Origin: a virus
IMG/VR virus record: IMGVR_UViG_3300043425_000825
Location: 1 to 44,995 of that record
Length of the DNA: 44,995 bases
Strand: one strand, 5' to 3'
Both the position numbers and the translations under genes were made by a program. The notes beneath the pieces are model-generated. The model was not told the origin of the DNA, ran no database searches, and worked only from the letters and a program-made list of their open reading frames with translations. Shown here piece by piece: positions 22,273-42,585 of this stretch. Within the stretch, counting starts at the first letter, position 1. Each line of letters starts with the position of its first letter.

Positions 22273-23916
22273 TTACACTACGTTAAGATCAGCTACTGCT
22301 ACCAAGCCATAGTATTCAGGACGTACCATAGTCATTGCGTAACGAGTCATAATACCTTTTCTTGGAGTGAAGGTATTTGGATCGTACACAAGTGGAGTCA
22401 TGATCAATGGAACATATGGAGAGTAAACAGCGCCACACTCAAGGAACTGATTGCCACGGAAACCGAGCAAGATAACGTTCTCAAGCATGTAAGGATTTTT
22501 GTAAACCTTGTAACGGCTGTTCAACTGACCGATTTTTTGTACACCGAAAGCATACTTCATTGTATCAGCTGCGCCATCTGTATCAGCAGCAAATCCTGGG
22601 ATAGACTCAAGAATTGTAGCTACAGTAGGAGAAACTACCATGAAGTTTGCACCACCGCGCAAAGTACGCTGATGGATAATATTAGATACTTTCTGAAGTT
22701 TGATACCCAAAGTCTGGAACCAACTCATTTGAGTATAGTAAACACCGTTAGTGTTGCTATCAAATGTAGTTGCAGCAGCGTTGATTTGGTTACCAACTTT
22801 AGCTGACCAATACTCGATAGTTGGAGCGTTTTGAATCAACATATCTAATACTTCCAAATCAATCTCAAGAGAGATATGCTCAGAAAGAAGACCAGTCAAT
22901 TCAGCTTCAGCATCAAGAGAATGGTAAGCATTCAAGTCTTGTGCAAATTCTGGAGTCCATTGTGCTTTCAACTTACGAGTTTTAGCACTGATTGTTTGAG
23001 ACTTCATTTGAACGTTGATCTCAGGGATAACGATAGAAGTTGCAGACAATGTATTTGGAACAGATGGGTTACCATTTCTGTCTTCGAAATCACCACGTGC
23101 ATTGAAGTCAGTAGCTTTGTTATAAATAACAAAGAATGCATCCAATGTTGGAATTTCAGCTGTAGATGCAGTAACAAAGAATTCAATGTTAGCACCATTA
23201 ACTTTAGTAAACTGCTGCAAGTTATCAGCAACAGATACTGATCCAGAAGTAACGATAAATGCACGTACTCCGTCAAGATTTGGAGTAGTCAAAGATGAAG
23301 TTGCTACAGTAAGCTTCTTGATTTGACCAGCTGCAACTGATGCAGAATATAAATTGTTGAAATCTATATCATTATAAGATGCAGTAGCTGCTGTTACAGT
23401 TACACCAGAAGCTGAGAATTGGTTCAAAGAATAACCAAAGCGACCAGCACCGTAAAGAGCGCCTTGAGCAAGGTTACCAAAGTTTGCACTTGGAGTACCG
23501 TAGATAGAATCACCAGCAGTGAAAGGACTCTTAGTGTTTCCGTATTGGAAATCAAGATAGAATACTAAACCAGCAGGAAGATTCATTGGCTGTACAGAAA
23601 CGAATTCTTTAGCAGCGATTTGACCAAAGATCTTACGTACTAATGGAAGAGCAACACCAGCCCACTGCTCACCAGTACCAGGAGTAAAGGTAGCACCGCC
23701 AGAGTTTGCGTTACCGTTAGTAGAAGAAGATTCAACTACAAGCTGTTTAGCTTGGTTTTCGAGAATTACGGCCATGTTGTTGGCGTCGTAATCATGCATG
23801 CCCTCGAGAAGGCCAGACTTGCTCCACTTTTTAGCAAGACGCTGAGCAACACCATGTTGATCAGAGAAAGCCGTGTTAGCGGATTCAGTCAATAAAGATT
23901 GTACTAAATTTGCCAT
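22273..23916 (-). CDS. gp23: Major capsid protein, gp23-like
   Basis: This 547-aa protein carries the gp23 hallmark TPEFAQDLNAYHSLDAEAEL followed by LSEHISLEID, and a C-terminus typical of T4-like capsids (YAMTMVRPEYYGLVAVADL). The N-terminal 60 residues are a probable propeptide: (L/I)-x-E sites at LTE (9-11) and ILE (51-53), and a looser VVE (60-62), are candidates for gp21 cleavage. T4 gp23 is cut after residue 65. GATFTPGTGEQ follows near residue 73 and recurs in another head-region protein. Codon choice is richer in G/C than in neighbouring genes (many AAC, GTA/GCA and CGT), as for highly expressed genes. A strong terminator follows, and the scaffold gene lies 24 nt upstream. Confidence 0.95.
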   Translation of the reverse strand: MANLVQSLLTESANTAFSDQHGVAQRLAKKWSKSGLLEGMHDYDANNMAVILENQAKQLVVESSSTNGNANSGGATFTPGTGEQWAGVALPLVRKIFGQIAAKEFVSVQPMNLPAGLVFYLDFQYGNTKSPFTAGDSIYGTPSANFGNLAQGALYGAGRFGYSLNQFSASGVTVTAATASYNDIDFNNLYSASVAAGQIKKLTVATSSLTTPNLDGVRAFIVTSGSVSVADNLQQFTKVNGANIEFFVTASTAEIPTLDAFFVIYNKATDFNARGDFEDRNGNPSVPNTLSATSIVIPEINVQMKSQTISAKTRKLKAQWTPEFAQDLNAYHSLDAEAELTGLLSEHISLEIDLEVLDMLIQNAPTIEYWSAKVGNQINAAATTFDSNTNGVYYTQMSWFQTLGIKLQKVSNIIHQRTLRGGANFMVVSPTVATILESIPGFAADTDGAADTMKYAFGVQKIGQLNSRYKVYKNPYMLENVILLGFRGNQFLECGAVYSPYVPLIMTPLVYDPNTFTPRKGIMTRYAMTMVRPEYYGLVAVADLNVV

Positions 23917-25134: not shown

Positions 25135-25767
25135 TTATTTACTTATACAACAAACACCAGATTGAGAACAAATAATATCTGATATTAATTGATGTACTTT
25201 ATTTTCTTTACGTTGAACTATTGTATGATCTACTGATTCTCTTAAACCTCCCATTGGTTTCATATATGCACCATAAGTTGATGGTGTAGATACAAAATCC
25301 CAACAAATAAGATCTAGATCATCTTCAACTTGAACAAGACCTTCGCCAATTGGAGTAACAGAACCCATGGCCCTAGATGAAATACCAACTGTAATATTGT
25401 TCTTAAATAGTTCTTTTAATATATTTCCAGAAGGAGTAGGAAGTATTTCAACATCTCCATATAAATCTTTACCTTCCCAAAATAGTCTTATTATATTATG
25501 ACTAACATTTTTAAGGTTAATAATAGAAGATTCTGGATGATCTAATTCTCCTAAAGCTCTATTCTCTGCAATTGGTCCGGCAATATATTTTTGTACTTGC
25601 TCAAATAAAGTTTGATAAGGATATATTCTTCTATTTGCATTAGGTTTATCAGTTGCCTGGACAAGTCCAGATACCACCATATTACCATTAGCTAAACGAC
25701 GACCTTCAGTCAAAGACTGGGCTATAGGTTGGAAAGCGTTGTATTCTATTAAGAGTTGTTTAGACAT
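25135..25767 (-). CDS. gp21: Prohead maturation protease, gp21-like
   Basis: This 210-aa protein matches the T4 gp21 (S77) serine protease family. Visible features are GELDHP with the likely catalytic His77, VGISSRAMG with the likely catalytic Ser130 or Ser131, and DLDLICWDFVSTPS near 152-165. These proteases cut scaffold and capsid proteins after (L/I)-x-E during head maturation. The N-terminus contains such a site itself (LIE, residues 6-8), fitting self-cleavage. The C-terminal tail CSQSGVCCISK has three Cys and is unusual. It overlaps the 442-aa gene upstream by 8 nt, and a 141-nt gap separates it from the scaffold gene. Confidence 0.9.
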   Translation of the reverse strand: MSKQLLIEYNAFQPIAQSLTEGRRLANGNMVVSGLVQATDKPNANRRIYPYQTLFEQVQKYIAGPIAENRALGELDHPESSIINLKNVSHNIIRLFWEGKDLYGDVEILPTPSGNILKELFKNNITVGISSRAMGSVTPIGEGLVQVEDDLDLICWDFVSTPSTYGAYMKPMGGLRESVDHTIVQRKENKVHQLISDIICSQSGVCCISK

Positions 25768-27088
25768 TTTGTTCTTGGCCTGTTTTTAAATTTACAATTT
25801 TTAATGGCTCTCCAGTATTTTGTTCTATTCCTTTAGCTTGGTTTTTACCCATACTATCATTTTTTCCTGCTCCAACAACAGTATTTGAACCAACTGTTTT
25901 TATAACATAAGCCTCTTTTAATTTTTTTAAAACCTCTTTAAGTTTTTTCATTTTTTCTTTATCATCCTTATACATTTCCATGTATTGTTTGATCTTAGAT
26001 AAATCTAAAGGCTTTTTAAATTGTTCAGGATCACCAATCATGCCGCTAAAAGGTTTTGCTTGATTTTTGTCCCAGTTTGCCCACATATCTTTTACAGAAG
26101 GTTCTGTTTGTGATCCTTGAGTAGGCTCTTGTTCTTGTGACTTTTGAGTAAAATGATCTACAGTATTAATTTGATAGTCTTTATGTGTACCGTCTTCCAT
26201 TTCAACAGTAAATGTACCACCTACTATTTCAATTACTTTACCTTGACCATCAGGAGTGTGAACTTCTGAACCCACATGATGTTTCCAGTGGCTATCTTCG
26301 TTAACTAACTCTTTTTTTTTAAGATGCGTAGTAAGCTCTTCAATAGCAGACTCTTTCAAGGATTTAACCTTTACTTTCTTCATCTCATTAGCCTTGTTCT
26401 TATGATTAGCTTTTTTAACTTCTTCAGTTTCAAGCTTAGCATCTGCCTTTTCTACATCTTTTGCATTAGCAAACATCTCTTCATCAAATGCATGGGGATT
26501 CTTTTCAAGCATTGATGCAGCTTTGTTTAGAGCTTTAATATATGAATCGTTAGTAAGTTCTTTTTCTTTTGCTAATAGTTTCTCTACTCCTTTTTTCAAA
26601 AAGTATGGATTTACTCTATCAACCGCTGGATCTGTAGGAATGTTATTATCAACTTCATTTAAAGACATTTTTTTAGCAGCTAATTTAGGATCATTTTTTG
26701 ATTTATTATCCATAAAAGAACCATCCCCCCACCAAGCTACTACTGCATCAGTATCTGCTGTTGAATTAAAATTAGGTCCTGCTTTAAATACATCTACATG
26801 TTGTAATTTGTCGTTAGTACTTACCAATGACTTAGCAAAAGATATGGCTTGATTTATATCTTTGAACTTCTTAGCTTGTCTAACTCCATCTGAATAATGC
26901 ACCTCATAGTTCTCACTAATCTCAGCTTCACTAATCACACCCTTATTCTTAAGGATCTTTACAGCATCATCATAAGAAGTAACATTAGTTACCCAAGGAA
27001 GATTTTTATCACGGCGTACTTCGTAAAGAAACTTCTCACGACTTACTTCACCGGCTTTATGCTTACGATATAATTCAATTGTTCTCAT
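25760..27088 (-). CDS. Head-region protein with β-barrel segment, 442 aa
   Basis: I do not recognise the full protein. The N-terminal 60 residues are basic and helical (MRTIELYRKHKAGEVSREKF). Residues 62-128 contain an ASYEVxYSDGVRQAKKF-like strand-rich segment. The middle is Lys/Glu-rich and helical. Residues about 280-315 (VGSEVHTPDGQGKVIEIVGG, then TVEMEDGTHKDY) look like a small SH3/KOW-like barrel. LNE and LKE tripeptides are possible gp21 cleavage sites. Its place between portal-side genes and the protease, and its composition, suggest a prohead core protein. Its start is only 4 nt from an ATATTTAT motif, and 12 nt from the stop of a 42-aa gene. Confidence 0.7.
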   Translation of the reverse strand: MRTIELYRKHKAGEVSREKFLYEVRRDKNLPWVTNVTSYDDAVKILKNKGVISEAEISENYEVHYSDGVRQAKKFKDINQAISFAKSLVSTNDKLQHVDVFKAGPNFNSTADTDAVVAWWGDGSFMDNKSKNDPKLAAKKMSLNEVDNNIPTDPAVDRVNPYFLKKGVEKLLAKEKELTNDSYIKALNKAASMLEKNPHAFDEEMFANAKDVEKADAKLETEEVKKANHKNKANEMKKVKVKSLKESAIEELTTHLKKKELVNEDSHWKHHVGSEVHTPDGQGKVIEIVGGTFTVEMEDGTHKDYQINTVDHFTQKSQEQEPTQGSQTEPSVKDMWANWDKNQAKPFSGMIGDPEQFKKPLDLSKIKQYMEMYKDDKEKMKKLKEVLKKLKEAYVIKTVGSNTVVGAGKNDSMGKNQAKGIEQNTGEPLKIVNLKTGQEQNV

Positions 27089-32497: not shown

Positions 32498-33186
32498 TAT
32501 TTTACAATTAATAAACCTATGATCGCAGCACCTAGTGCTACTTTTTGGAATCTACCAAATTTAAGTTTGCGATCAGCTTTTTTTACTTCTGTTTTCAAAC
32601 CGTCAACTTGTATTTTATAGTTGTCAATTTGACTTGATTTATCTTTATCTATTTGAATATAATTAGCTTCTTTATCTCTTAATTTAACTATAACTTCTTC
32701 ACGATTCTTAAGAGATTGGTCTAAAGTAACTATAACACTATCTTGTGCTACTACTAACTTTTCATTTGTTTCTCCTTCTTGAAGATCAACAACAATTGCT
32801 TTACTTACTTCTAGAGGAAGTTGGGTAGTATCTTTAGAAACTAAAATATATTCATTAGAATACTTAGCTATAAAAAAACTATCTACTTGAGTAGGAGTAT
32901 ATTTTAATGCGTCTTTTGCATCTTTAAGATCTCCTTTTAAATCTAAGACTTTTTCATTTAATTTACCTACTTTAACTACCAAGTATCCATTATCTTGTTC
33001 TAATACACTGATAGCTCCTTCTAAATGAGTATTTTCTATTTGTACAGAATCTATATTATGTTGTAATGAATCAATCTTTTGTTCAAATGGCTTAGTATCA
33101 AATTTAGGTGCTTTATAAATGAATACATACCATACTGCTATTAAAGCTAAAAGGCATATTACTATAATACTAATTGTCTTCTTCAT
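32497..33186 (-). CDS. Membrane-anchored coiled-coil protein, 229 aa (possible spanin-like)
   Basis: A membrane segment at residues 5-27 (ISIIVICLLALIAVWYVFIY) follows two lysines, predicting an N-in anchor with the rest outside. Residues 35-90 and 150-210 have heptad-like coiled coils, with a Thr/Gln-rich middle. A second hydrophobic stretch near the C-terminus (VALGAAIIGLLIV) is bounded by lysines. An N-anchored coiled coil recalls inner-membrane spanins, but the C-terminal hydrophobic segment is atypical, and no partner lipoprotein is visible. It overlaps the 116-aa gene upstream by 17 nt and the terminase start by 1 nt. It might instead be a virion or membrane-remodelling factor. Confidence 0.6.
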   Translation of the reverse strand: MKKTISIIVICLLALIAVWYVFIYKAPKFDTKPFEQKIDSLQHNIDSVQIENTHLEGAISVLEQDNGYLVVKVGKLNEKVLDLKGDLKDAKDALKYTPTQVDSFFIAKYSNEYILVSKDTTQLPLEVSKAIVVDLQEGETNEKLVVAQDSVIVTLDQSLKNREEVIVKLRDKEANYIQIDKDKSSQIDNYKIQVDGLKTEVKKADRKLKFGRFQKVALGAAIIGLLIVK

Positions 33187-33520
33187 CTGGATCTAATTTA
33201 GGGTTTTCTACTTTATCTATTTGAGCTTTAAGAAGCTTAATTCTATCAGGAATATTTCCAACAGCATTCTTATATCCAGCTACATCTTTAAGTTTAAGAT
33301 TACCATCAGGTCCTCTTTCTGTATATTTTGCAAGGATAGTTTTTACTTGTTGTTGAAGATTGGCTAGCTCTTTTTTCTTTTTGTCTATTGATCTAAAATC
33401 CTTTTCAGATTGTTTAAGATCATCTTTTGAAGGTTCTGCCTCCATATCTTCCTCTTCTCTAATTCTAGAAATTATGGTAAGATTGTTTTCGACTAAATAC
33501 TTTTCTAAGTTAAATGACAT
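33170..33520 (-). CDS. Small helical protein with capsid-targeting-like N-terminus, 116 aa
   Basis: The N-terminus MSFNLEKYLVENN has LVE at residues 9-11, resembling the (L/I)-x-E capsid-targeting and cleavage peptide of T4 internal proteins. The remainder is a charged helical domain (KKKELANLQQQVKTILAKYT; IKLLKAQIDKVENP) that could form a coiled coil, with an acidic C-terminus. It lies just upstream of the membrane/coiled-coil gene with a 17-nt overlap, two genes before terminase. A small terminase subunit is a conceivable alternative because of position, but no DNA-binding motif is evident. Confidence 0.6.
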   Translation of the reverse strand: MSFNLEKYLVENNLTIISRIREEEDMEAEPSKDDLKQSEKDFRSIDKKKKELANLQQQVKTILAKYTERGPDGNLKLKDVAGYKNAVGNIPDRIKLLKAQIDKVENPKLDPDEEDN

Positions 33521-33536
33521 GGTCGTACATTTACTT

Positions 33537-33544
33537 ATAAATAT
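33537..33544 (-). promoter_or_regulatory. ATATTTAT junction motif before 116-aa gene
   Basis: The minus strand reads ATAAATATTTATAAG, palindromic, 16 nt before the start of the 116-aa gene and 3 nt after the upstream stop region. It would drive the unit leading into terminase and portal. Confidence 0.4.
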
Positions 33545-33547
33545 TTA

Positions 33548-33793
33548 TCAATCAACAAAATCTTCTTTAGTAGTAGCTTTCCTTAAAGGTCTAGATAATT
33601 CTAACCATCTGTCATAATCGTATTTAACTCCAAACAAATAGTATTCGTCCTGCTTATTATGTCCTTTTCCATAAAGGATGGCTGGTCCTGTAGCACAGTG
33701 AGGTTTTGTAACACCTTTTTCGTCTTCGTAAATGTGAATTGTTGTCCCTTCTATAGTCTTTATTGTTCTATAGATCGTATCTTTTTTTGCCAT
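33548..33793 (-). CDS. Hypothetical protein, 81 aa, MORN-like GPAxxY strand
   Basis: The protein has a β-hairpin-like pattern: IHIYEDEKGV..., then HCATGPAILYGKGHNK and DEYYLFGVKYDYDRWLELSR. The GPAxxYxxG...YYLxGxxY arrangement resembles MORN/YwqK-type repeats seen in small phage proteins. That similarity is by eye, and the role is unknown. It ends with the only TGA stop I noted nearby. It lies 43 nt downstream of the 509-aa gene and 27 nt upstream of the next gene. Confidence 0.6.
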   Translation of the reverse strand: MAKKDTIYRTIKTIEGTTIHIYEDEKGVTKPHCATGPAILYGKGHNKQDEYYLFGVKYDYDRWLELSRPLRKATTKEDFVD

Positions 33794-33836
33794 GTTATTA
33801 ATTTATGGCTAATATACAAAAAATAATTAAGAGATA

Positions 33837-35366
33837 TTAACTAAAGTCTATAGTATCATTTACTGAAATATCATCATCTGTCAGGGTATCTCCAAATAAA
33901 AATTTAGTGAGAGAATAAATTCCATTATCCATAAAATCTTTTACTTTATCAATATAAGATTTAATAGTATCTGTTATTCCTTCTTTAAGTTTAGTTGGAT
34001 CTGATATTAAAGATACCACACTCCAAAATCTATATCTTCCAGTTTTTTCTCCTTTTAATTTTTCAGAAGAAGATTTAAATCTAACAGTCAATTTCATTTG
34101 ATCTGCTATTTTTGAAGCATACGCATCATTTTGAGTAGAGTGCAATTTAGGATTAGATAAATCACTACTTACAGATAGTACATAATCAGCAGACGCAGGA
34201 CTACCTGCCCCAAATTTTTCATATCCAGACATTGCTTCTTTTGCAAATGCAATTTTAAATTCAGGACTTTTAGTAAATAAAGACTCTAACTTTTCAGCCA
34301 TTTCTTTATGCGCTTTATCACCAGCCGCTAATATCTTGTCTTTTCCTGATTTTAAACCCGCTTCTACTCCTCCAGATTTTGTATATCCTACCTCAACAAA
34401 TTTATCAAATGTGTTTAGGACTTCTTTTGCTTCTTTTGTATTTAGTATTCCAGGAACTTTTTTAGCCGCGGCATAAAATGTTGCTAAAGACTCATTTTTA
34501 CCTCCTGACATTAATTGAGAATTTCCTACTTTTACTGATATTTTTTTATTTCCTAATATTACATCAGTTTTTGGAGTTGTATTAACAGCTCCTTGATTTT
34601 TCCAAAAATCGGTTAATGTTGCTTTTTCACCGCTTCTTCCTGTTGCTCTAGCAGATTTACCTGTTTGAAGTTTTAATTCTATTATTACATTCTTTGCTTT
34701 TTCTAGCATTTTTTTATTAGACTTAAGTTTATCTAATTCTTCTGGTAAAATTGCATCAGGTGGTACTTTTAATCCGTTAACTAAATACCAAGCGTATACT
34801 AAAGCCGATTCAAAAAGGGTCGCCTCACCTGTATCTGCTTCTTTTAATATAGCTTCTAATATTCTAGATTCTGTTAATTCTTCTCCTCCGCCTTCTTCTG
34901 TACTAGTTTCCGCTGGAGGTGTTGGTCCTGCTTCTTCTGCAGGTCCTTCTGAATCTCTAGTGCCTTGCTCTGCTCCATCTGGGCCTTTGGTCTTTAAAGG
35001 ATTACCAAACCTAAGAAGTCTTGATATAGCAACCATACATCTTTCTTTCTCACCAATAGACATTAAATAATACTTCTTTCCTTCAACAGTTGCTTCATAG
35101 GCTTTGCCCATAAACTGCAAGAAAAAGAATTGCCCATTATGTAGAACAATTTTAAATGTAGTCGGCTTAGGAGCAACTACATATATACCAGTAATATATT
35201 CTTCAAATGAAGGAGTCATAAGATACTCAAGAGTATTCTTAAGTCCTACATACTTCTTTAATATAAACTGCATAGGATCATCCTCAAACGTTGATTGTTC
35301 AGGTTCCATCCTATCTAATTCTTGTAAGAGTATTGTTTTTAATATGTCTTGGTTACTCACTGGCAT
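33837..35366 (-). CDS. Possible virion-associated PD-(D/E)XK-like protein, 509 aa
   Basis: Residues 1-125 form a first domain with an N-terminal helix ending in LQE (14-16), resembling a capsid-targeting peptide. Residues 126-165 are a Pro/Glu/Gly-rich linker. A second helix with LKE (174-176) precedes a domain with nuclease-like spacing: FESALVYAW (Glu186), PKTDVILGNKKISVK (Asp268 and Lys279), then GNSQLMSGGKNESLATF. This resembles PD-(D/E)XK folds, but I cannot confirm the metal-binding set. The C-terminal 200 residues are mixed and end in an acidic tail. A packaged nuclease or a structural relative without activity are both possible. Confidence 0.55.
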   Translation of the reverse strand: MPVSNQDILKTILLQELDRMEPEQSTFEDDPMQFILKKYVGLKNTLEYLMTPSFEEYITGIYVVAPKPTTFKIVLHNGQFFFLQFMGKAYEATVEGKKYYLMSIGEKERCMVAISRLLRFGNPLKTKGPDGAEQGTRDSEGPAEEAGPTPPAETSTEEGGGEELTESRILEAILKEADTGEATLFESALVYAWYLVNGLKVPPDAILPEELDKLKSNKKMLEKAKNVIIELKLQTGKSARATGRSGEKATLTDFWKNQGAVNTTPKTDVILGNKKISVKVGNSQLMSGGKNESLATFYAAAKKVPGILNTKEAKEVLNTFDKFVEVGYTKSGGVEAGLKSGKDKILAAGDKAHKEMAEKLESLFTKSPEFKIAFAKEAMSGYEKFGAGSPASADYVLSVSSDLSNPKLHSTQNDAYASKIADQMKLTVRFKSSSEKLKGEKTGRYRFWSVVSLISDPTKLKEGITDTIKSYIDKVKDFMDNGIYSLTKFLFGDTLTDDDISVNDTIDFS

Positions 35367-35369
35367 TAT

Positions 35370-36041
35370 TTATTTTGCTTTTTTAAGCTTTATAACACTT
35401 TCCATCATAGATTTAAGAGACGTTTCGTTAATCTTTTTTGGAATAGGTAATACATCAAGATCTTTAGCAAGCTCCTTAGCTTTATCTTGATCTTTTGCAC
35501 TTAACTTATTATAAGAGGTAATAAGTTGAGATTTGGTGATGTTTTCTTTTTTATATAGCTGTAAATTTTTAGAAAAATCTTTAAGACTAATAGACTTGAC
35601 TTCCATCATAGATTGAAGTTTCATATCTAAATCTTCTGCATCGCCTGCAGGTTCTTCAATTGTACCGTTTGGTAATTCATCCATATCATGTTCACTATTA
35701 TGATATTCATGGTAGTTTTTTGAAGCTTGATTAATAAAGTTCTCTGCATTAGTAATGTGATCTTGGATCCAAGCTGGGATGTCTTTTTCATCTTGGCCTA
35801 ACATATTCATTAATTGACTTGCTGAGCTTATAATAGACTTAAGACTATTTTGTGCCATTGATACTTCATGGTCTTCACCTTCTTTTTTTACATCTTTTTT
35901 TGCACGAAGTGCAGCAAAGTCTGCACCAGTAATTTTGTCTTTAGGTTCAGCAGCTTGTGCTATTTTTTCTTGATTTCCAGGAAGATCTTTTTCGTTCAAC
36001 TCTTTCATTAAAAGAGCTTTAAAGAATGAAATACTATTCAT
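35370..36041 (-). CDS. Conserved phage protein, 223 aa, helical
   Basis: The N-terminus is a hydrophobic helix (MNSISFFKALLMKELNEKDL) with LNE at 15-17, like the other candidate capsid-targeted proteins here. The segment SIISSASQLMNMLGQDEKDI followed by PAWIQDHITNAENFINQASK matches a helical element common in T4-like phage structural proteins (pattern LPxWxQxKITxAxxYI). This is a recollection. The C-terminal 75 residues are Lys-rich and helical. It overlaps the small membrane protein gene by 8 nt (ATGAATAG) and precedes the 509-aa gene by 3 nt. Function unknown; probably virion or head-core. Confidence 0.65.
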   Translation of the reverse strand: MNSISFFKALLMKELNEKDLPGNQEKIAQAAEPKDKITGADFAALRAKKDVKKEGEDHEVSMAQNSLKSIISSASQLMNMLGQDEKDIPAWIQDHITNAENFINQASKNYHEYHNSEHDMDELPNGTIEEPAGDAEDLDMKLQSMMEVKSISLKDFSKNLQLYKKENITKSQLITSYNKLSAKDQDKAKELAKDLDVLPIPKKINETSLKSMMESVIKLKKAK

Positions 36042-36204
36042 TTGTATTATTTTGTCTTTGTTTACATTTATTACATTTACAACCTTTATGTATATAAATA
36101 TTATATCTTAATTTTAACCAACTATAAACACCAGCTAATCCTAATGCACCAGAAATCCATGCTAATGCATTTAATATCATAGCAGTCCAACAGGCTGGGC
36201 ACAT
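36034..36204 (-). CDS. Small membrane protein with cysteine motifs, 56 aa
   Basis: An ATG at 36204 overlaps the preceding stop (TAATG), and the 56-codon frame ends in TAG at 36034, overlapping the next start by 8 nt. The protein starts MCPACWTAMILNALAWISGA, has one clear membrane segment (residues 8-30), then a basic tail with GCKCNKCKQRQ. Two cysteine pairs, CPAC before and CKCNKC after the span, could bind metal. Tight coupling on both sides supports expression. Function unknown; a membrane-targeted late protein is one option. An ATATTTAT copy at 36094-36101 lies inside this gene and is probably just coding. Confidence 0.75.
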   Translation of the reverse strand: MCPACWTAMILNALAWISGALGLAGVYSWLKLRYNIYIHKGCKCNKCKQRQNNTNE

Positions 36205-36491
36205 TACTTTTTCTTTTTAGATTTACTTGCTTTTTTCCATAACTTTTTATCTACTTTTCTTGCTCCACCTTTACCTGTTACAAATGAATTAACTCTACCC
36301 ATTGCCCATTGATGCTGTCCAACTCCAGGGCGATGTCCTGTTTTCCAAGCCGCTAAACCTTTAGCATAAACGCTTTTAAGTATAGTTTTAGATATACCAG
36401 TAGACTTGGCTTTATTTGCTAATGCTTTTTCTACTTCAGCATCGTACTCAAGCATGAGTATTTGCTTTAATATATCTAATTTATTTATCAT
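36204..36491 (-). CDS. DUF5824-like small basic protein, 95 aa
   Basis: This 95-aa protein has an amphipathic N-terminal helix (MINKLDILKQILMLEYDAEV), a short helix, then the conserved block GLAAWKTGHRPGVGQHQWAM and RVNSFVTGKGGARKVD. That block is what I associate with the phage-encoded DUF5824 family. The C-terminus is a Lys-rich tail. DUF5824 proteins have no known function. It overlaps the 91-aa gene upstream by 4 nt and the small membrane protein gene by 1 nt. Confidence 0.7.
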   Translation of the reverse strand: MINKLDILKQILMLEYDAEVEKALANKAKSTGISKTILKSVYAKGLAAWKTGHRPGVGQHQWAMGRVNSFVTGKGGARKVDKKLWKKASKSKKKK

Positions 36492-36763
36492 TTCTTTTTC
36501 TTTTTATCTAGTTTGTTTTTAACTATTTCTCTAGTTCTATCCATTTTCCTTGCATAAGCAGGATCGTCTTTACGGTTAAAATTTGCTTGTTGGTTTAATG
36601 AGCCAGTTATTTTACTCATGTTACCTTTTCTTGTTTTAATTAACCAATTAGCTAACTTTTCTGCTGGCAACTCTTTAAACCTACCTTTTGCATCTGGTGC
36701 GTTTGAATGGTGAAACTTTAATCTTTCTTCAACTAATTGTTGTAATAGTTTTTGTAGCTTCAT
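36488..36763 (-). CDS. Conserved phage protein, 91 aa, capsid-targeting-like N-terminus
   Basis: The N-terminus MKLQKLLQQLVEERLK has LVE at 10-12. The body contains HSNAPDAKGRFKELPAEKLA followed by NWLIKTRKGNMSKITGSLNQ and RKDDPAYARKM, a block I recognise from small proteins of many T4-like phages, though not with a function. The tail is Lys-rich. The pattern of a short hydrophobic leader before a compact, basic domain suits a packaged internal protein. Overlaps with both neighbours are 1-4 nt. Confidence 0.7.
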   Translation of the reverse strand: MKLQKLLQQLVEERLKFHHSNAPDAKGRFKELPAEKLANWLIKTRKGNMSKITGSLNQQANFNRKDDPAYARKMDRTREIVKNKLDKKKKK

Positions 36764-37293
36764 TATTTTTCTTTTTTACCAAACCTTTTTTCATACGCAG
36801 AAGTTGCAGCACTTTTCTTAGTTTTATATTTTTTAGTCTTAGCCTTATCTGAATAATCTGCATCCCATTTACCATACGCAGAAGGATCATCAGACTTTAA
36901 TTTCTTTACTCTATCAATTTCTTTCTTCATTGCTGCTGCATCTTTAGTAAGATATGCAGGATTAACTTTACCTTTCTTTTTTGCTTCACTTACTCTAACA
37001 CAATTAGGAACCATTCTGTTCCCTTTCTTTTTTAATCCTTTTTGTCTGTATCCTTTCCAACAAGCTTCTTCTAAAGGATTTAAATCTAATTCTCTTCTTA
37101 TTAAATCAAACTCTTCATATTCCATCCCTAAAAGTTCCTCTTGTACATCTTCTTTAGATCTTAGTTTGTGATAAGGGAATACTACTTTAGATACTAATTC
37201 AGGATTTTGATCATATAAATCTAGAATAGGTTGTATTGTCATTACTCCCATTTCTGAGATAACTTCATTCAATATATCTTTAAGCTTGATCAT
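36763..37293 (-). CDS. Phage protein with CWKGY...VPNCV motif, 176 aa
   Basis: The first ten residues (MIKLKDILNE) form a near-ideal amphipathic leader ending in LNE. A helical region follows (residues 20-90). Then comes EACWKGYRQKGLKKKGNRMV-PNCV, a short element found at the ends of many phage structural and scaffold proteins. The last 70 residues (NPAYLTKDAAAMKKEIDRVK onward) are basic and helical, ending in a YEKRFGKK element. The arrangement suggests modular tagging domains. It overlaps adjacent genes by 1 and 4 nt. No enzymatic function is visible. Confidence 0.7.
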   Translation of the reverse strand: MIKLKDILNEVISEMGVMTIQPILDLYDQNPELVSKVVFPYHKLRSKEDVQEELLGMEYEEFDLIRRELDLNPLEEACWKGYRQKGLKKKGNRMVPNCVRVSEAKKKGKVNPAYLTKDAAAMKKEIDRVKKLKSDDPSAYGKWDADYSDKAKTKKYKTKKSAATSAYEKRFGKKEK

Positions 37294-37607
37294 TTATTTC
37301 TAATTATTAGTTCACCTAATACTTCTAGTCTACCAACCTCTCTTTGAAATTCTGTTTGAGTCATATTCAAAGATATGCTTTTATACGTTTTATCATATTC
37401 TTTTTTAGCTTCTTCTATATTAAACTCACCTTGTTTAGCTTTCTTATAATAAGGAAGCTTAACTATAAAGTGGTTATAAGTAAGCATAGATAGGCCGCCT
37501 TTTTCCTTTGCGTTGTTTGCAATCTTCTCAGCACCCTTCATTCTTGTTTCTGCAAAATCTATGAAAGACTCTTTAATTTCCTTTAAAATATCTAGAAGCT
37601 TTGTCAT
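37290..37607 (-). CDS. Conserved phage protein, 105 aa, LxE leader
   Basis: The leader MTKLLDILKEIKES ends in LKE at 8-10 and is almost the same as that of the P-loop kinase at 41797-42585 (MIKLLDLLKE). The body reads FAETRMKGAEKIANNAKEKG, LTYNHFIVKLPYYKKA and a C-terminal EFQREVGRLEVLGELII. It is compact and helical with a conserved-looking YNHFxVKLPYYKKA core. I do not know its function. Its start is 6 nt from an ATATTTAT motif. Confidence 0.7.
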   Translation of the reverse strand: MTKLLDILKEIKESFIDFAETRMKGAEKIANNAKEKGGLSMLTYNHFIVKLPYYKKAKQGEFNIEEAKKEYDKTYKSISLNMTQTEFQREVGRLEVLGELIIRNK

Positions 37608-37613
37608 ATGAAT

Positions 37614-37621
37614 ATAAATAT
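37614..37621 (-). promoter_or_regulatory. ATATTTAT junction motif before 105-aa gene
   Basis: The minus strand reads AGATATTTATATTCATATG, 6 nt before the start of the 105-aa gene and 1 nt after the upstream stop codon. It also contains TATTTATA, the reverse complement of the T4 late promoter core. Confidence 0.4.
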
Positions 37622-37622
37622 C

Positions 37623-38243
37623 TTAATTTCCACTTTGATTTATATCATAGTAATAGGAGTCTGAGTCTTCGGATACCCACCTATCAGAAACAGATTCTAC
37701 ATTTAATAGTTCCGTATCTACTTTAATCATTTTTGGATCAATAGGAAAGTCTTTTGTTATCCAGTTAGAATCCTTCCAGTATATCCTATTATTAGGCATA
37801 CAAAGTAAATAACCATCATCTGCTACTAAAATATGGCCGCATTTGTAGTCTGATGGTTCATTTGAATAAGTATTATTCTGCCAATCTATGGTCATTAAGT
37901 ATGTAGCCCAGACCGTAGTTTTATCTCTAAGAATAACTTTGCATCTTTTGTCTTTTAGGAAGTCATATTTTATAACTGCGGCATCTGAACCAAAACAATC
38001 CCATAATTGTTTAAAATAGTAAGGTATATCTTTAGTGGGAGGTTTTAAATATATTTCAGACATAGGAACTCTAGATCTAAGCATCCCGTAGTCTGTCATT
38101 ACATGGAAAGTTAGTATCTTAGCATCTACAGATTGAACTCCAAAGGCGTAACAATTATGAAATATATTATCGTCTTTTTTGTCTTTTGTAAAATAAGATT
38201 GTCTAACTAAACACTTAAAAGATTCTATATTATAATTTAGCAT
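37623..38243 (-). CDS. Conserved phage protein, 206 aa
   Basis: The protein has a mixed αβ pattern with blocks NCYAFGVQSVDAKILTFHVM, LWDCFGSDAAVIKYDFLKDK, TTVWATYLMTIDWQ and KCGHILVADDGYLLCMPNNR. I recall this combination from hypothetical proteins of T4-like cyanophages and related viruses, with no known role. There is no leader peptide and no membrane span. Cys residues are scattered, without a zinc-binding pattern. It is the last gene of the unit begun at 39724 and ends just before an ATATTTAT motif. Confidence 0.65.
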   Translation of the reverse strand: MLNYNIESFKCLVRQSYFTKDKKDDNIFHNCYAFGVQSVDAKILTFHVMTDYGMLRSRVPMSEIYLKPPTKDIPYYFKQLWDCFGSDAAVIKYDFLKDKRCKVILRDKTTVWATYLMTIDWQNNTYSNEPSDYKCGHILVADDGYLLCMPNNRIYWKDSNWITKDFPIDPKMIKVDTELLNVESVSDRWVSEDSDSYYYDINQSGN

Positions 38244-38250
38244 AATTCAT

Positions 38251-38715
38251 TTACCACTTCCTACATGACCAATATCTTGCTTTCCATCTTGGTCCAGGAT
38301 TAGTATCACAATGATGTCTTGCTCTAAAACTTTTTCTTCTTTTAGGATTACCTTTTTTTATTTTTACTCCTTTCTGGCCAAAGTTTACTTTAACAACGTT
38401 TCCTTTAGCATTCTTAACATACACCTTAAACTTTTTAACATCACCAGCCATTGGTTTTCCTAATTGCACTTTTCTACCTTTATATTCTGCTTCATGAAGT
38501 ATATTAATATGATCTTTTATATATTGCGCTAAACATTGAGGACAAAATTCTCCTTCATTTAGTTCTTCAAGTCCTGCTTTAATTAATTTATCATAGTATT
38601 TAGGATCTTCTTTAATATGATCTAAAGCTATTTTTAAAGCTATTTTAGGATCATCAGTATGCTCCATTTCAACTTCAATACCTTTTTTTATTTGAGATAA
38701 TAAAGCTTTATCCAT
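38251..38715 (-). CDS. Two-domain phage protein (DUF5661-like + DUF6321-like), 154 aa
   Basis: Residues 8-50 (KKGIEVEMEHTDDPKIALKI...HIKEDPKYYDKL) match the vElEHT...IAldHLkEdPdYY pattern of the DUF5661 type. A CPQC pair sits near residue 58. Residues 78-154 (GRKVQLGKPMAGDVKKFKVY, VNFGQKGVKIKKGNPKRRKS and a CRKW end) match what I recall as DUF6321, with conserved FRARHHC and ARYWSC. Both domains occur widely in phages without known function. The Cys/His-rich end could bind zinc. Start and stop are coupled to the Dps-like gene by 1 nt. Confidence 0.65.
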   Translation of the reverse strand: MDKALLSQIKKGIEVEMEHTDDPKIALKIALDHIKEDPKYYDKLIKAGLEELNEGEFCPQCLAQYIKDHINILHEAEYKGRKVQLGKPMAGDVKKFKVYVKNAKGNVVKVNFGQKGVKIKKGNPKRRKSFRARHHCDTNPGPRWKARYWSCRKW

Positions 38716-39086
38716 TACTGTAAGAATTTAAGTTTATACTTAGTATCTTCTATTAGTTTAACTACAGTATCAACTTCATTTTGAATATAAGAATCTTGAG
38801 GAATATCTTGCCTAATCATTTCTACAAACTTAGAAAGTCCTTCAAAATACATTTTAGGATTATTATCTTCACGAATAGCTTCAGGCATTTTATAACCTGT
38901 TATAATCCCATAACGACCTTGCAATCCTTCTGCAATTCCATCTATTAAAGGTACTATATCTTCATAGTATTCTTGTAAAGCTTTATGAGCCGCAAAAGAG
39001 CCTGGGCCTTGGATTTGTAAATGATAAATGTGAGCCTGATTTCTAGACTGCATTAATGTTCCAAGAAATAAACCTAAAGCCTCCAT
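38715..39086 (-). CDS. Dps/ferritin-like helical protein, 123 aa (DUF5856-like)
   Basis: The protein is a predicted four-helix bundle. SRNQAHIYHLQIQGPGSFAA-HKALQEYY then DIVPLIDGIAEGLQGRYG resembles the Dps fingerprint, in which a His follows the first helix, a second His begins the next helix, and Asp and Glu in IDGIAE complete the iron site. I recall such phage proteins as DUF5856. Dps stores iron and shields DNA. Whether this one binds iron is unknown, since the C-terminal half differs. It is shorter than Dps (about 160 aa). The gene overlaps both neighbours by 1 nt. Confidence 0.65.
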   Translation of the reverse strand: MEALGLFLGTLMQSRNQAHIYHLQIQGPGSFAAHKALQEYYEDIVPLIDGIAEGLQGRYGIITGYKMPEAIREDNNPKMYFEGLSKFVEMIRQDIPQDSYIQNEVDTVVKLIEDTKYKLKFLQ

Positions 39087-39724
39087 TATTTTTCTTTTTT
39101 CTCTTCTTTCTTGTCTTCTACTTTCTCAACATTCTTTTTGCTCTTCTCAATCTTTTCCATCTTACTCATAAGATCATCTATTTGTGTAGCAATCTTGGCA
39201 ATATGTTCTTTGTGTTTAGAAGCATTTTTAGGATCTTCTTTAGCCATATCAACGTGCTCTTTACGCTTTTTTTCAAGATGATCGATAGTCTTTTTTAATT
39301 TGTCTCCAACTTTTCCTTTCTTTTCTTCAAGTTGTAAAGCTTCATCCATACAAGACTTATAAGCTTCAGCAGCAATTGCTTGTGCTTCTTCAGCATTTAC
39401 ATGTACAGAATGCACATCTTCCATACCTATATTTAAAGGTTGAATTCCTTCAAGTGGATTTAATTCTAATACTAAATCTGATTCATTCATATCTGCATTA
39501 GGTTTGCGTACTATATACATAGAGGCTACTCCCATATTTTCTTTCTTAACTTTTTTAGGAAGGCCTTTATGTTTAGTTGCAGCGAAGTCTTTTACATCGC
39601 CTTTTTTCATTGATTTAGCCATTTCTTTTGCTTTTCCTGATGCTTGTGAAGGTTTTATATCTCCTTTTTGAAGGGCATGAACTATACCCATTAATTTTTG
39701 TTGTTGTTTAGATGCTGCTGGCAT
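39086..39724 (-). CDS. DUF3008-like protein with coiled-coil C-terminus, 212 aa
   Basis: Residues 1-57 (MPAASKQQQKLMGIVHALQK, then AKEMAKSMKKGDVKDFAATK and HKGLPKK) match the DUF3008 family, found in phages and bacteria and of unknown function, though its basic helices suggest nucleic-acid contact. A middle part has IVRKPNADMNESDLVLELNP and an acidic strand-rich segment. Residues 130-212 are Lys/Glu-rich coiled coil. The gene begins the unit after the ATATTTAT motif at 39742 and overlaps the Dps-like start by 1 nt. Confidence 0.75.
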   Translation of the reverse strand: MPAASKQQQKLMGIVHALQKGDIKPSQASGKAKEMAKSMKKGDVKDFAATKHKGLPKKVKKENMGVASMYIVRKPNADMNESDLVLELNPLEGIQPLNIGMEDVHSVHVNAEEAQAIAAEAYKSCMDEALQLEEKKGKVGDKLKKTIDHLEKKRKEHVDMAKEDPKNASKHKEHIAKIATQIDDLMSKMEKIEKSKKNVEKVEDKKEEKKEK

Positions 39725-39738
39725 ACTATATAGATTTA

Positions 39739-40317
39739 CTAATAAATATCTGTTTTCCTAAACTCCTCTATCTTTTCTTTAAGCTGTTTATATAACTGAG
39801 ATTTGTCTCCACCATGCCAATTTTCTACATCTCCTTGTTCAGTTACAAATGTGTCTTTTTCCTCAAGCCATGAATCCAAGGCCTGTTCAAATTCTTCAAG
39901 ACTAGCATTCTTATTCATATTAAGAATATTCTTCTCATATTCCTCATACTTTCCTTCAAGCTTTAGTTTAGCCTCCATATCAACAACACAGTTCAAACAC
40001 ATTTTATGTACAGAGTACATCTTCTTATTTAATTCATTTGCCTTCATAGGCTTCTTACAACTAGGACACGTAAGAGGTAAAGATACTAAGTGTTTGAATT
40101 TATCTAGCTTGGTAATAGATTGTTTTATACCATTCTTAATGGTCCACTTCTTTCCATCCTCTTCCCAAGTATCACCCTCTTTGTGCTCCTCTATTTTATT
40201 TTCCCAACCTCCGAGTATTTGAGTTTTATCACCAGTTTTACCAGTGATAATGTTTCTCATTCTTTGAACGTCTTTTTGTTTGAATTCTTTTTTTAGAGTA
40301 GAATCTTTTGGTAACAT
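39739..40317 (-). CDS. Zinc-ribbon phage protein, 192 aa
   Basis: Two CxxC pairs, CPSC (near 84-87) and CLNC (near 107-110), form a probable zinc ribbon. Upstream are RMRNIITGKTGDKTQILGGW and WEEDGKKWTIKNGIKQSITK, a β-rich block that I recall from proteins in other T4-like phages. The C-terminal part is helical and acidic (EEYEKNILNMNKNASLEEFE). A nucleic-acid-binding or regulatory role is possible; I know no named function. The last three codons overlap an ATATTTAT motif at 39742-39749. It starts 2 nt after the stop of the metallopeptidase-HAD gene. Confidence 0.7.
   Translation of the reverse strand: MLPKDSTLKKEFKQKDVQRMRNIITGKTGDKTQILGGWENKIEEHKEGDTWEEDGKKWTIKNGIKQSITKLDKFKHLVSLPLTCPSCKKPMKANELNKKMYSVHKMCLNCVVDMEAKLKLEGKYEEYEKNILNMNKNASLEEFEQALDSWLEEKDTFVTEQGDVENWHGGDKSQLYKQLKEKIEEFRKTDIY
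39742..39749 (-). promoter_or_regulatory. ATATTTAT junction motif before DUF3008-like gene
   Basis: The minus strand reads AGATATTTATTAGTAAATC, 18 nt before the DUF3008-like start. It overlaps the last codons of the zinc-ribbon gene, so the coding sequence there must satisfy both uses. Confidence 0.4.
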
Positions 40318-40319
40318 AA

Positions 40320-41213
40320 CTATTTTATTCTAAATTTACTTAATATATCTTTTGTTTTATTAATATCTTTATGCATTATTGCAATCCCGCCTAATGCTTT
40401 CCAAGGAGCAAGATTCGGCCAATAATCATCTATTAGCATAGAGTTCTTAGGATCAGCTGTCATCATAGAATGCTTATCTCCTGTTTGAGCAAATAGAATT
40501 TTTTTAGGTTGAGGATTTAAATTATTTTCTATCCACATTTTTTTTCCTTCTTTAGCAAACTCAAATTTACTAGGACTAGTTAAAATATACGGTTTATATT
40601 TTCCTATAATAGACCATAATTCTTTACCTCCAGGCATCCAATTCATTTTGGCCCAGAAGTCAATACCAGCTTCATTTACTGCAACTTCAAATGCTTTAGA
40701 ACCTTTTTCTGTATAATATTCTCTAGGTTGAACTCCATAAAAGTGTTCAAATCTTTCATCAAAATCACATAGAACTCCATCCATATCACAATAGATTTGA
40801 ATACCTCCAGTTTGTTCTACTTCATATATTTGTTTTAAGCTAGGTAGAAGAGATTCGTAAATAAGATCATTACTCTTACCATAATCTCTCATCATCATAC
40901 CAGCTAGTGCATTTGCTTGATTCTCTATATTAGAACCGGTTTTGCCTGCATCTGCATATAATTTACCTAATTCATTTTGTTTATGATGAACTAATTCATG
41001 ACATAAAGTTCTAAGTATGTCTGCTAGATTTCTATTACCTATATAAACATCTAAATGTTTTTGATTTGGATCATATTGTCCAAAACTTCTTTTTTCAGTA
41101 GCCCATTCACGATCATTTAAAAACCTAATTGTAGGAAGTTTATCTATATCAAGTTTATTTTTTACAAACTGTATAAAATCCTCTATTATTTCTTGTCTTT
41201 GTTCTGGTGTCAT
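40320..41213 (-). CDS. Metallopeptidase-HAD phosphatase fusion, 297 aa
   Basis: Residues 1-112 hold a zincin-like domain. CHELVHHKQN (71-80) is an HExxH motif (His72, Glu73, His76), and IENQAN (96-101) offers a third ligand Glu97, as in small metallopeptidases. Residues 135-297 are a HAD hydrolase of the 5'(3')-deoxyribonucleotidase type: YCDMDGVLCDFD (141-152) has nucleophile Asp143 and Asp145, a YILTSP stretch follows as motif II, and MLIDDYWPNL as the acidic motif. The fusion is unusual. It overlaps the nucleotidyltransferase stop by 4 nt and shares a unit with the P-loop kinase. A combined role in nucleotide or RNA-end processing is inferred. Confidence 0.8.
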   Translation of the reverse strand: MTPEQRQEIIEDFIQFVKNKLDIDKLPTIRFLNDREWATEKRSFGQYDPNQKHLDVYIGNRNLADILRTLCHELVHHKQNELGKLYADAGKTGSNIENQANALAGMMMRDYGKSNDLIYESLLPSLKQIYEVEQTGGIQIYCDMDGVLCDFDERFEHFYGVQPREYYTEKGSKAFEVAVNEAGIDFWAKMNWMPGGKELWSIIGKYKPYILTSPSKFEFAKEGKKMWIENNLNPQPKKILFAQTGDKHSMMTADPKNSMLIDDYWPNLAPWKALGGIAIMHKDINKTKDILSKFRIK

Positions 41214-41800
41214 TTCATTATTTTCAATAATCTTCCAAATACATCTTTAGCTACTCCCTTATTATATGCTGAGTCTGGGATAAACTTAACAAACTCTTCA
41301 AAGTTACCATCTTTAATTGTAGCTCTCATTTGAGTTGCAGATATTCTACCAAATTGTGCAGGTATAATTTGAGGTCTTATTTTATTAGGGAATCTTTTTT
41401 GTATAGAATCAAAATATCCTAATTCTGTTTGTTCTTCTTCACCTGATGCAACATAAACTGGATCAATATCTGGGTTCTCTGCCATAAAAGAAAAGATATC
41501 TTTTATAGGTGTTGACTCTTTAGATATTGATACTTCTATTTTAGGATTAGGTTCTGCTTTTAAATATTCTTGCCAAATATAAAGAGAATCTTCAGGAGTT
41601 ATACCGTACTTAGTAACATTAGATATAACAACATATACCTTATTAATATAATTTAGTGATGCTAAATACTTTGCAGCTTCAAAATGTCCTTTATGAGGAG
41701 GCTTAAATTTACCAGGGTAAAAACAAGGGCCTACATCTGGAGATGCTTCTTTTAATATATCCTCTGCTATCTGTCTTCCTAGTTGTTCGAAGTTAATCAT
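41210..41800 (-). CDS. Cytidylyltransferase-like nucleotidyltransferase with LxE leader, 196 aa
   Basis: After a helical leader ending in LKE (16-18), residues 25-160 form an HxGH nucleotidyltransferase. GKFKPPHKGHFEAAKYL holds His36 and His39 of the HxGH motif, VYVVISN is the Rossmann strand, and ISATQMR (153-159) corresponds to the ISST-type motif that binds ATP phosphates. Family members make NAD+, CDP-lipids or pantetheine intermediates. The substrate here cannot be read from the sequence. An NMN adenylyltransferase (NAD+ salvage) is one option. It overlaps the kinase by 4 nt and the metallopeptidase-HAD gene by 4 nt. Confidence 0.85.
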   Translation of the reverse strand: MINFEQLGRQIAEDILKEASPDVGPCFYPGKFKPPHKGHFEAAKYLASLNYINKVYVVISNVTKYGITPEDSLYIWQEYLKAEPNPKIEVSISKESTPIKDIFSFMAENPDIDPVYVASGEEEQTELGYFDSIQKRFPNKIRPQIIPAQFGRISATQMRATIKDGNFEEFVKFIPDSAYNKGVAKDVFGRLLKIMK

Positions 41801-42585
41801 GACTTAATAAATGATTTTGCTTTAGACACAACATTTTCAATACTATCATCTTTTAAAGACTCAACTTGCTTTTCTATATCTTCAAATTGTCCTGATAAGA
41901 TGTCTATTTGTTTATCCACTAACTCTTTAGATTTTGCTTTCTCCTCAGGTGATTTTTCCTTGGCGGGATCTTTTCTAAAGGTAGAAGTAAATTGTCCAGA
42001 AGATAATAGCTCAGAAAAGAATTCTTTTAATTTACCAGAATTGTAGGCTTTCATAAAAGCGTCTACCATTTTCTTTTCAGCAGGACTTACATCAGTTTGA
42101 ACTAGTAAAAAATTATCTCCAAACATACTTTTATATGTAGAGATATTTTTATATACGTTATTCCAACTTGACAATACTCCAACTGTTGGTACCTTTCTTT
42201 CTCTCTTAAAGTTTCTTAAGAAGCTAACTACTGGATTGGTGTAGACCATAATCATCATTACATCGTATCCAGCAGATTCTATACCCTTCACTCTTTCTAC
42301 ATTTGTTCCTGTAGTATCGTAAAGAAAGTTTTTTCCTGATTTTATTGCATTAGGAAGATCAACTTTCTCGATATAACTAGAAGCTTTGCCCAGACTATTA
42401 TACATAGGACTATCTTTGTCTTCTACATACTTGTCTGCATTTAGTTCTTCCCAGCCTGCTTTTTGAAGATCTGGTTGTAATTGCCTAACTACACTGGACT
42501 TGCCTGCACCTGCTCCGCCAGCCATAACAATAGCCTTACTACCATTTTCAGGTTGTTCTTTTAATAAATCTAGTAGCTTAATCAT
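41797..42585 (-). CDS. P-loop kinase (zeta-toxin/polynucleotide-kinase-like) with LxE leader, 262 aa
   Basis: MIKLLDLLKE (1-10) is a clear amphipathic leader ending in LKE. GGAGAGKS (23-30) is Walker A. LNADKYVED (about 48-56) gives the Asp of the substrate site, YDTTGTN the following motif, and RERKVPTVGVLSSWNNVYKN the lid arginines, as in zeta-toxin and polynucleotide-kinase families. Residues about 185-262 are a helical, Lys/Glu-rich C-terminal extension with coiled-coil character, not part of the kinase. The substrate is not known. A DNA/RNA 5'-end or a small molecule is possible. It starts 8 nt from an ATATTTAT motif and heads the three-enzyme overlapping unit. Confidence 0.8.
   Translation of the reverse strand: MIKLLDLLKEQPENGSKAIVMAGGAGAGKSSVVRQLQPDLQKAGWEELNADKYVEDKDSPMYNSLGKASSYIEKVDLPNAIKSGKNFLYDTTGTNVERVKGIESAGYDVMMIMVYTNPVVSFLRNFKRERKVPTVGVLSSWNNVYKNISTYKSMFGDNFLLVQTDVSPAEKKMVDAFMKAYNSGKLKEFFSELLSSGQFTSTFRKDPAKEKSPEEKAKSKELVDKQIDILSGQFEDIEKQVESLKDDSIENVVSKAKSFIKS

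Follow-up and report, generated by a model that had tools for sequence, protein, structure and literature searches.

Do the genes at 33170-42585 of an uncultured T4-like phage encode proteins that are tagged at the N-terminus, cut by the phage's own gp21-type protease, and carried in its head? The DNA analyzed here (hereafter the window), 44,995 bases long, is virus record IMGVR_UViG_3300043425_000825, positions 1 to 44,995, and comes from an uncultured lineage of T4-like phages. T4 packs a few tagged internal proteins (IPI, IPII, IPIII, and Alt), which are processed by gp21. An earlier note on the window had claimed nine (L/I)-x-E motifs close to protein starts within 33170-42585. All nine were found at the residues given, and one of the proteins, the gp21 protease itself (25135-25767), falls outside that interval. 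Judged from sequence, the genes likely encode gp21-processed internal head proteins of the T4 type, in a set that is unusually broad and modular. The leaders, their portability, their conservation in the manner of protease sites, and a gp21-family gene were read directly from the DNA and its homologs. For the window's phage we infer that the proteins dock to the core, are cut, reside in the virion, and are ejected at time zero.

Conservation of the N-terminal leaders

Because the (L/I)-x-E motif is short, residues 8-19 were compared with internal stretches of the same proteins. Under a loose rule ([LI]xE with E at residue 8-19, the expectation being derived from positions further inside each protein), the leaders as a set were above chance. 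The motif was found in 17/43 window genes against 5.4 expected and in 9/17 cassette genes (binomial p 7e-5), and it occurs in ~13% of internal windows. A strict rule was modeled on the T4 capsid-targeting sequence (CTS) and asks for hydrophobic residues at P7 and P4, L or I at P3, and E at P1. It matched 5/43 window genes (0.2 expected), 13/213 in a 162-kb relative (G001; 2.2 expected), 16/221 in Flavobacterium phage immuto (3.1 expected), and 12/256 in T4 (3.5 expected). Matches in T4 include gp24 and two proteins that start with the internal-protein leader MKTYQEFIAE. There was no excess under the strict rule in crAss001 (1 vs 1.9 expected) or lambda (0 vs 0.8 expected). A 54-aa reading frame in T4 (AF158101 18966-19130) begins with MKTFKEFIKE, a sequence that closely resembles the internal-protein leader.

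Counting LxE motifs was rejected as a criterion by itself, as they are too common to settle individual proteins, and conservation of P1 and P3 with a free P2 was therefore used instead. A protease site was expected to keep P3 and P1 while P2 drifts across homologs. This pattern was found in homolog alignments of at least seven families, and in these alignments conservation tells real sites from chance sites. The sites near protein starts are:

42556..42585, minus strand: kinase leader MIKLLDLLKE; P3 L/I and P1 E in 53/53 homologs, P2 free
41747..41800, minus strand: nucleotidyltransferase leader MINFEQLGRQIAEDILKE (gene 41210-41800)
37578..37607, minus strand: 105-aa protein leader MTKLLDILKE (gene 37290-37607); 9/9 homologs
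37264..37293, minus strand: 176-aa protein leader MIKLKDILNE (gene 36763-37293); P3 L in 12/12 and P1 E in 9/12, the other 3 being alignment gaps
36728..36763, minus strand: 91-aa basic protein leader MKLQKLLQQLVE (gene 36488-36763); 18/18 homologs, P2 V/F/Y/A
36447..36491, minus strand: 95-aa DUF5824 protein leader MINKLDILKQILMLE (gene 36204-36491), MLE 13-15; P1 E in 23/23 homologs and P3 I/L in 22/23, the exception being the M in the window
35991..36041, minus strand: 223-aa protein leader MNSISFFKALLMKELNE (gene 35370-36041); P1 E in 22/24, P3 L/I in 71% and otherwise M
35319..35366, minus strand: 509-aa protein leader MPVSNQDILKTILLQE; P2 Q/N/K in near relatives, mixed in the wider alignment
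33488..33520, minus strand: 116-aa protein leader MSFNLEKYLVE (gene 33170-33520); 37/37 homologs, P2 T/V/I
25705..25713, minus strand: gp21 LTE 19-21; conserved in 17/17, P2 T/N/S/K
23884..23892, minus strand: LTE 9-11 near the N-terminus of gp23 (22273-23916); 11/11, P2 T/A/S/N

Among the members that the earlier note had listed, conservation supports the kinase, the nucleotidyltransferase, and the 105-, 176-, 91-, and 116-aa proteins, and is weaker for the 223- and 509-aa proteins. The note had overlooked the sites in the 95-aa protein and gp23, and internal ones in the 154-, 176-, 297-, and 509-aa proteins. Conservation of P1 and P3 fails for gp17 IKE, 283-aa LFE, primase LLE, and 297-aa IIE 9-11, which look like chance matches. 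The last of these, which had not been claimed before, was rejected as a leader site.

The gp21 protease itself is recognized by PF03420 (E 6.3e-24) and phrog_207 (E 3.9e-46). Its LIE at residues 6-8, named in the earlier note, is where it was said to be and aligns by eye with LIE-9 of T4 gp21, which a T4 review names as fitting the cleavage logo (PMC9026906). Cleavage there is less likely, because all three positions of LIE 6-8 are invariant among homologs, and the propeptide site is probably LTE 19-21, with its free P2.

All genes from 22273 to 44320 lie on the minus strand, in the order gp23, gp22-like scaffold, gp21 protease, gp20, gp17, and then the cassette (33170-42585), which is transcribed in the same direction as gp17, gp20, gp21, and gp23. 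Short overlaps between many neighboring cassette genes, each of a few bases, support the start codons.

Portable leaders, cargo, and internal sites

The kinase and the unrelated 105-aa protein share 7/9 leader residues, and six leader-sharing pairs occur among unrelated window proteins vs 0.5 after shuffling. In the relatives analyzed, a 10-residue leader of the MIKLxDLLxE type stands at the start of 124 proteins; without it, these proteins belong to 19 unrelated families. This pattern gave 125 N-terminal matches vs 0.7 expected from internal Met, plus three internal matches that look like overlong gene starts. Several basic proteins are among its cargo in relatives, as are a P-loop kinase, a 5'-3' deoxyribonucleotidase, and an NTP_transf_2 enzyme. 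Another leader class, FNLxKYLxE followed by NxLT, is found at the start of several different proteins in phage immuto; the leader of the 116-aa protein is of this class. The leaders thus behave like portable, protease-cut tags in sequence comparison. The earlier proposal of capsid-targeting leaders cut by a gp21-type protease gains support from the N-terminal excess, fixed P1 and P3, leader portability, the position of leaders outside folds, the PF03420 protease, the shared orientation of the cassette and the head genes, and three virion-detected cyanophage nucleotidyltransferases that begin with a T4-style leader. Many mature parts are also basic, like T4 internal proteins.

Further leader-bearing genes were seen in these relatives. 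An immuto gene annotated as cob(I)alamin adenosyltransferase (MW353176 117587-118588) starts with FNLRSFLTE followed by NKLT, a leader that other immuto proteins carry too. Another leader-bearing gene group lies at 64346-72074 of a 162-kb relative (L168), distant from the head genes, with the leaders MKDFNIAKYLKE, MIKLIDILLLE, and MKLSKILKEVLSE; one of its proteins weakly resembles DUF6934. A 125-aa protein with a MIKLLDLLKE leader (L102 5769-6146) has no Pfam or PHROGs match, and its start, YLYHATYEPLL, is ADP-ribosyltransferase-like by eye.

The cargo domains and the internal sites are:

41797..42585, minus strand: zeta-toxin-like P-loop kinase, 262 aa (252 aa mature if cut after E10)
41210..41800, minus strand: NadD/CoaD-fold adenylyltransferase, 196 aa
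40821..40829, minus strand: internal IYE (aa 129-131) of the 297-aa protein (40320-41213), before a HAD 5'-3' deoxyribonucleotidase domain
38491..38499, minus strand: internal LHE (aa 73-75) of the 154-aa protein (38251-38715), before a basic C-terminal domain
37066..37074, minus strand: second site LEE (aa 74-76) of the 176-aa protein, before a basic ACWKGY domain
33837..35366, minus strand: 509-aa protein with domain A (30-120) and domain B (180-460)
34839..34877, minus strand: internal second leader LTESRILEAILKE (aa 164-176) of the 509-aa protein, in a disordered linker

The kinase of the proposed set was borne out: PF06414 matches residues 14-131, directly after the leader, with 41.6 bits vs a cut-off of 22.3, and a PDB sequence search gave no match. 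The nucleotidyltransferase also held up, with a predicted NadD/CoaD fold and the leader outside it. Its model matches CoaD and NadD with VIA Z ~15, the alignment covering mainly residue 22 onward, and has a Foldseek E of 8.5e-7; pLDDT is 56-59 in the leader and ~90 or higher over most of the domain. The PDB sequence search gave a weak match. Residues P34, P35, H36, G38, H39, T156, and R159 are invariant, and the NadD/CoaD hallmarks, (T/H)xGH and ISSTxxR-like motifs, are present. An [LI]xE precedes the catalytic motif in 34/38 homologs, and the other 4 are leaderless, beginning directly at the catalytic domain. A split NadR (kinase plus adenylyltransferase making NAD) was considered and stays a guess, because the kinase matches zeta toxin.

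The 509-aa protein was modeled with a low-confidence helix at 6-19 in its leader and a disordered stretch at 122-178 that contains the second-leader helix; in this model, as in that of the nucleotidyltransferase, leaders sit apart from folded domains. Across its relatives the first 135 residues are constant; an acidic linker and a second leader come next, and then a C-terminal part, of which there are at least six kinds. In most relatives the second leader lies at the junction with these swappable domains. Standalone C-terminal parts occur in isolates Melnitz-3 and HTVC008M, with the leaders MQGFKTFLSE and MLSFTGYSNLSE, each followed by A; the Melnitz-3 homolog begins close to the second-leader position. 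The earlier description of a nuclease-like protein is partly sustained. A Foldseek search with the model found no significant match, and for this reason the label is a fold-level one. In the second aligner, domain B had VIA Z scores of 9.4, 9.2, and 8.7 (MspI and HinP1I: 9.4 and 9.2) vs at most 6.4 for other chains, which suggests a nuclease-like domain of the MspI/HinP1I (PD-(D/E)XK) fold. E186, D268, S277, and K279 are invariant in 13 homologs, the Lys without a preceding Glu. Domain A has a weak frataxin-like fold (Z 6.4). Pfam and PHROGs gave no confident family for the C-terminal domain or its swapped versions, except for one version that matches phrog_8438.

In nearly all homologs of the 154-, 176-, and 297-aa proteins, (L/I)xE directly precedes the C-terminal domain. 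Of 43 homolog contexts of the HAD motif, standalone and fused alike, 42 have [LI]xE no more than 26 aa before it, and the HAD domain of the 297-aa protein occurs in relatives as a standalone protein with its own leader. The second site of the 176-aa protein reads [LI]xE followed by ACW in 10/10 contexts, and in short homologs the leader is fused straight onto the ACWKGY domain. In the 154-aa protein, [LI]xE followed by A was found in 21/24 contexts with E at P1 and seven different P2 letters, and the part after the site has a pI of 11.0. In relatives of the 154-aa protein, this basic domain has many different N-terminal partners, from none to >200 aa. For the 95-aa protein, one relative has a MISLLKLLLE leader.

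Other features of the window include ATATTTAT, found within 60 bases upstream of 10/43 genes vs 0.6 expected and preceding structural and leader-bearing genes alike. It is a candidate late promoter, by sequence. Two long proteins of 986 and 3160 aa (3411-6371 and 8821-18303) have extensive SSG/TSG collagen-like repeats and are probably tail fibers.

Minus strand, ATATTTAT upstream of genes 25760-27088, 33170-33520, 37290-37607, 41797-42585, 8821-18303, and others

Virions and known systems

The available sections of three reports describe a cytidylyltransferase/NMNAT in CsCl-purified virions of the T4-like cyanophages S-CREM2 (PMC10665884), S-SZBM1 (PMC9146016), and S-SCSM1 (PMC9602691), and in those sections the leader goes unmentioned. 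These enzymes start with MKNFSSFLTE, MRFRQFIIE, and MKSFLQFLKE, respectively, each followed by A, in the T4 pattern. They belong to the same superfamily as the window nucleotidyltransferase and likewise have an LxE leader in front, but the similarity is distant, and tblastn with the window enzyme did not find them. Two other S-CREM2 virion proteins, the SAM hydrolase ORF6 and ORF13, also start with a T4-pattern leader. In S-CREM2 ORF12, a Cas9-like virion protein (OR473000 7704-10313), a leader-like LRFASFMAE followed by A was seen at residues 17-25.

Ten N-terminal residues are enough to package T4 IPIII, positions 4 and 7 serving targeting and positions 8 and 10 serving processing, and the CTS has already been proposed as a loader of varied proteins in T4-like phages (PMC9026906). 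The residue rule fits the E10 leaders of the window; its spacing is kept by the kinase, 105-aa, and 176-aa leaders and shifted by one residue in the 116-aa leader. The window and T4 share an N-terminal propeptide of 10-19 residues ending in (L/I)-x-E, hydrophobic positions 4 and 7 in E10 leaders, a gp21-family protease, and many basic cargo proteins. A long leader is also found in T4 IPI, where it ends at E19. The systems differ in the leader itself, aliphatic MIKLxDLLxE in the window and MKTYQEFIAE in T4, and in the window lineage's cargo of nucleotide enzymes and a nuclease-like fold, its internal sites before second domains, and its far larger number of families. Polyvalent proteins (Iyer, Aravind, and colleagues; discussed in PMC7824862, PMC9503650) are phage proteins that likewise combine several domains and are presumed to be injected with DNA, but in the window prohead-protease-like sites separate the domains, many of which are encoded by genes of their own, each with a leader, and no MuF or portal fusion was seen in the window. 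Phages phiKZ and SPN3US (PMC9026906, PMC5694885) also pack many proteins into the head, among them ejection proteins, and remove their propeptides after a Glu motif, but have their own prohead proteases, another protease motif, and other protein families.

Several points weigh against the internal-protein reading. The virion evidence comes from distant cyanophages; the authors of the three reports allow for carry-over of abundant proteins (PMC10665884, PMC9146016, PMC9602691), and a literature search for a virion proteome of the window's clade found none. Strict-rule matches were not significantly enriched among S-CREM2 virion proteins (3/7, Fisher p 0.25), and one of eight in S-SZBM1 is a detected protein; restricting S-CREM2 to E9-11 and non-structural proteins gave p 0.028 in a subset picked after the fact. 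The nucleotidyltransferase, 91-, 95-, 223-, and 509-aa leaders break the T4 spacing. Two of the proteins, those of 223 and 116 aa, are acidic, and the conservation counts are not independent, as homologs share ancestry.

Alternative readings and implications

If the genes encode internal head proteins, an amphipathic leader of 10-18 residues would probably dock each protein to the prohead core. The gp21-type protease would then cut after (L/I)-x-E and release a mature protein that stays in the head alongside the DNA. In genes with two cargoes, an extra site or leader ahead of the second domain would do the same. By analogy with T4, the leader-bearing enzymes and basic proteins could pass into the host along with the DNA. 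More tentatively, and somewhat less likely than not to our minds, the locus may be a polymorphic effector system in which proteins of the 509-aa type join a constant N-terminal head module, through a disordered linker that carries a second leader, to exchangeable nuclease-like C-terminal domains, which gp21 would free within the head. The kinase, adenylyltransferase, and deoxyribonucleotidase cargo would be fused or split likewise, and a changing set of nucleases and nucleotide enzymes would be delivered at time zero, comparable to tip swapping in polymorphic toxin systems.

The strongest alternative, which we nevertheless think unlikely, keeps the leaders as docking and cleavage tags for the core but has the proteins serve assembly as scaffold, core filler, or DNA-condensing factors that are degraded or left in the empty head, with none entering the host. 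Several mature parts are small and very basic (pI 10-11), and in T4 the core proteins gp22 and gp67 are broken down into fragments (PMC9026906). It would be odd, however, for a scaffold to include a kinase, an adenylyltransferase, a deoxyribonucleotidase, and a restriction-enzyme-like domain, and T4 Alt and IPI are ejected. It is less probable still that the N-terminal helices dock elsewhere (to portal, tail, membrane, or each other) and match (L/I)xE incidentally. Amphipathic helices are general docking elements and some leaders depart from T4 spacing, but P1 and P3 are fixed while P2 is free, and in three families the same signature recurs internally exactly ahead of a folded domain. Chance and composition, by which Leu/Ile/Lys/Glu-rich starts in an AT-rich phage would often yield so common a motif, are contradicted for the core set by the internal controls, the shuffling of positions, both control phages, and the single leader found across 19 unrelated families, and could apply to an individual weak member, for example the 223-aa protein.

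What is new in the internal-protein reading is the breadth of the CTS beyond T4's close kin, the nucleotide-enzyme and nuclease-like cargo, and the modular fusions. If it is true, a simple check for a leader in the sequence would be enough to foresee which proteins are injected by uncultured T4-like phages, among them enzymes classed as auxiliary metabolic genes. The recurrent adenylyltransferases in cyanophage virions would also have an explanation, and host takeover prior to phage gene expression would become testable in aquatic phages.

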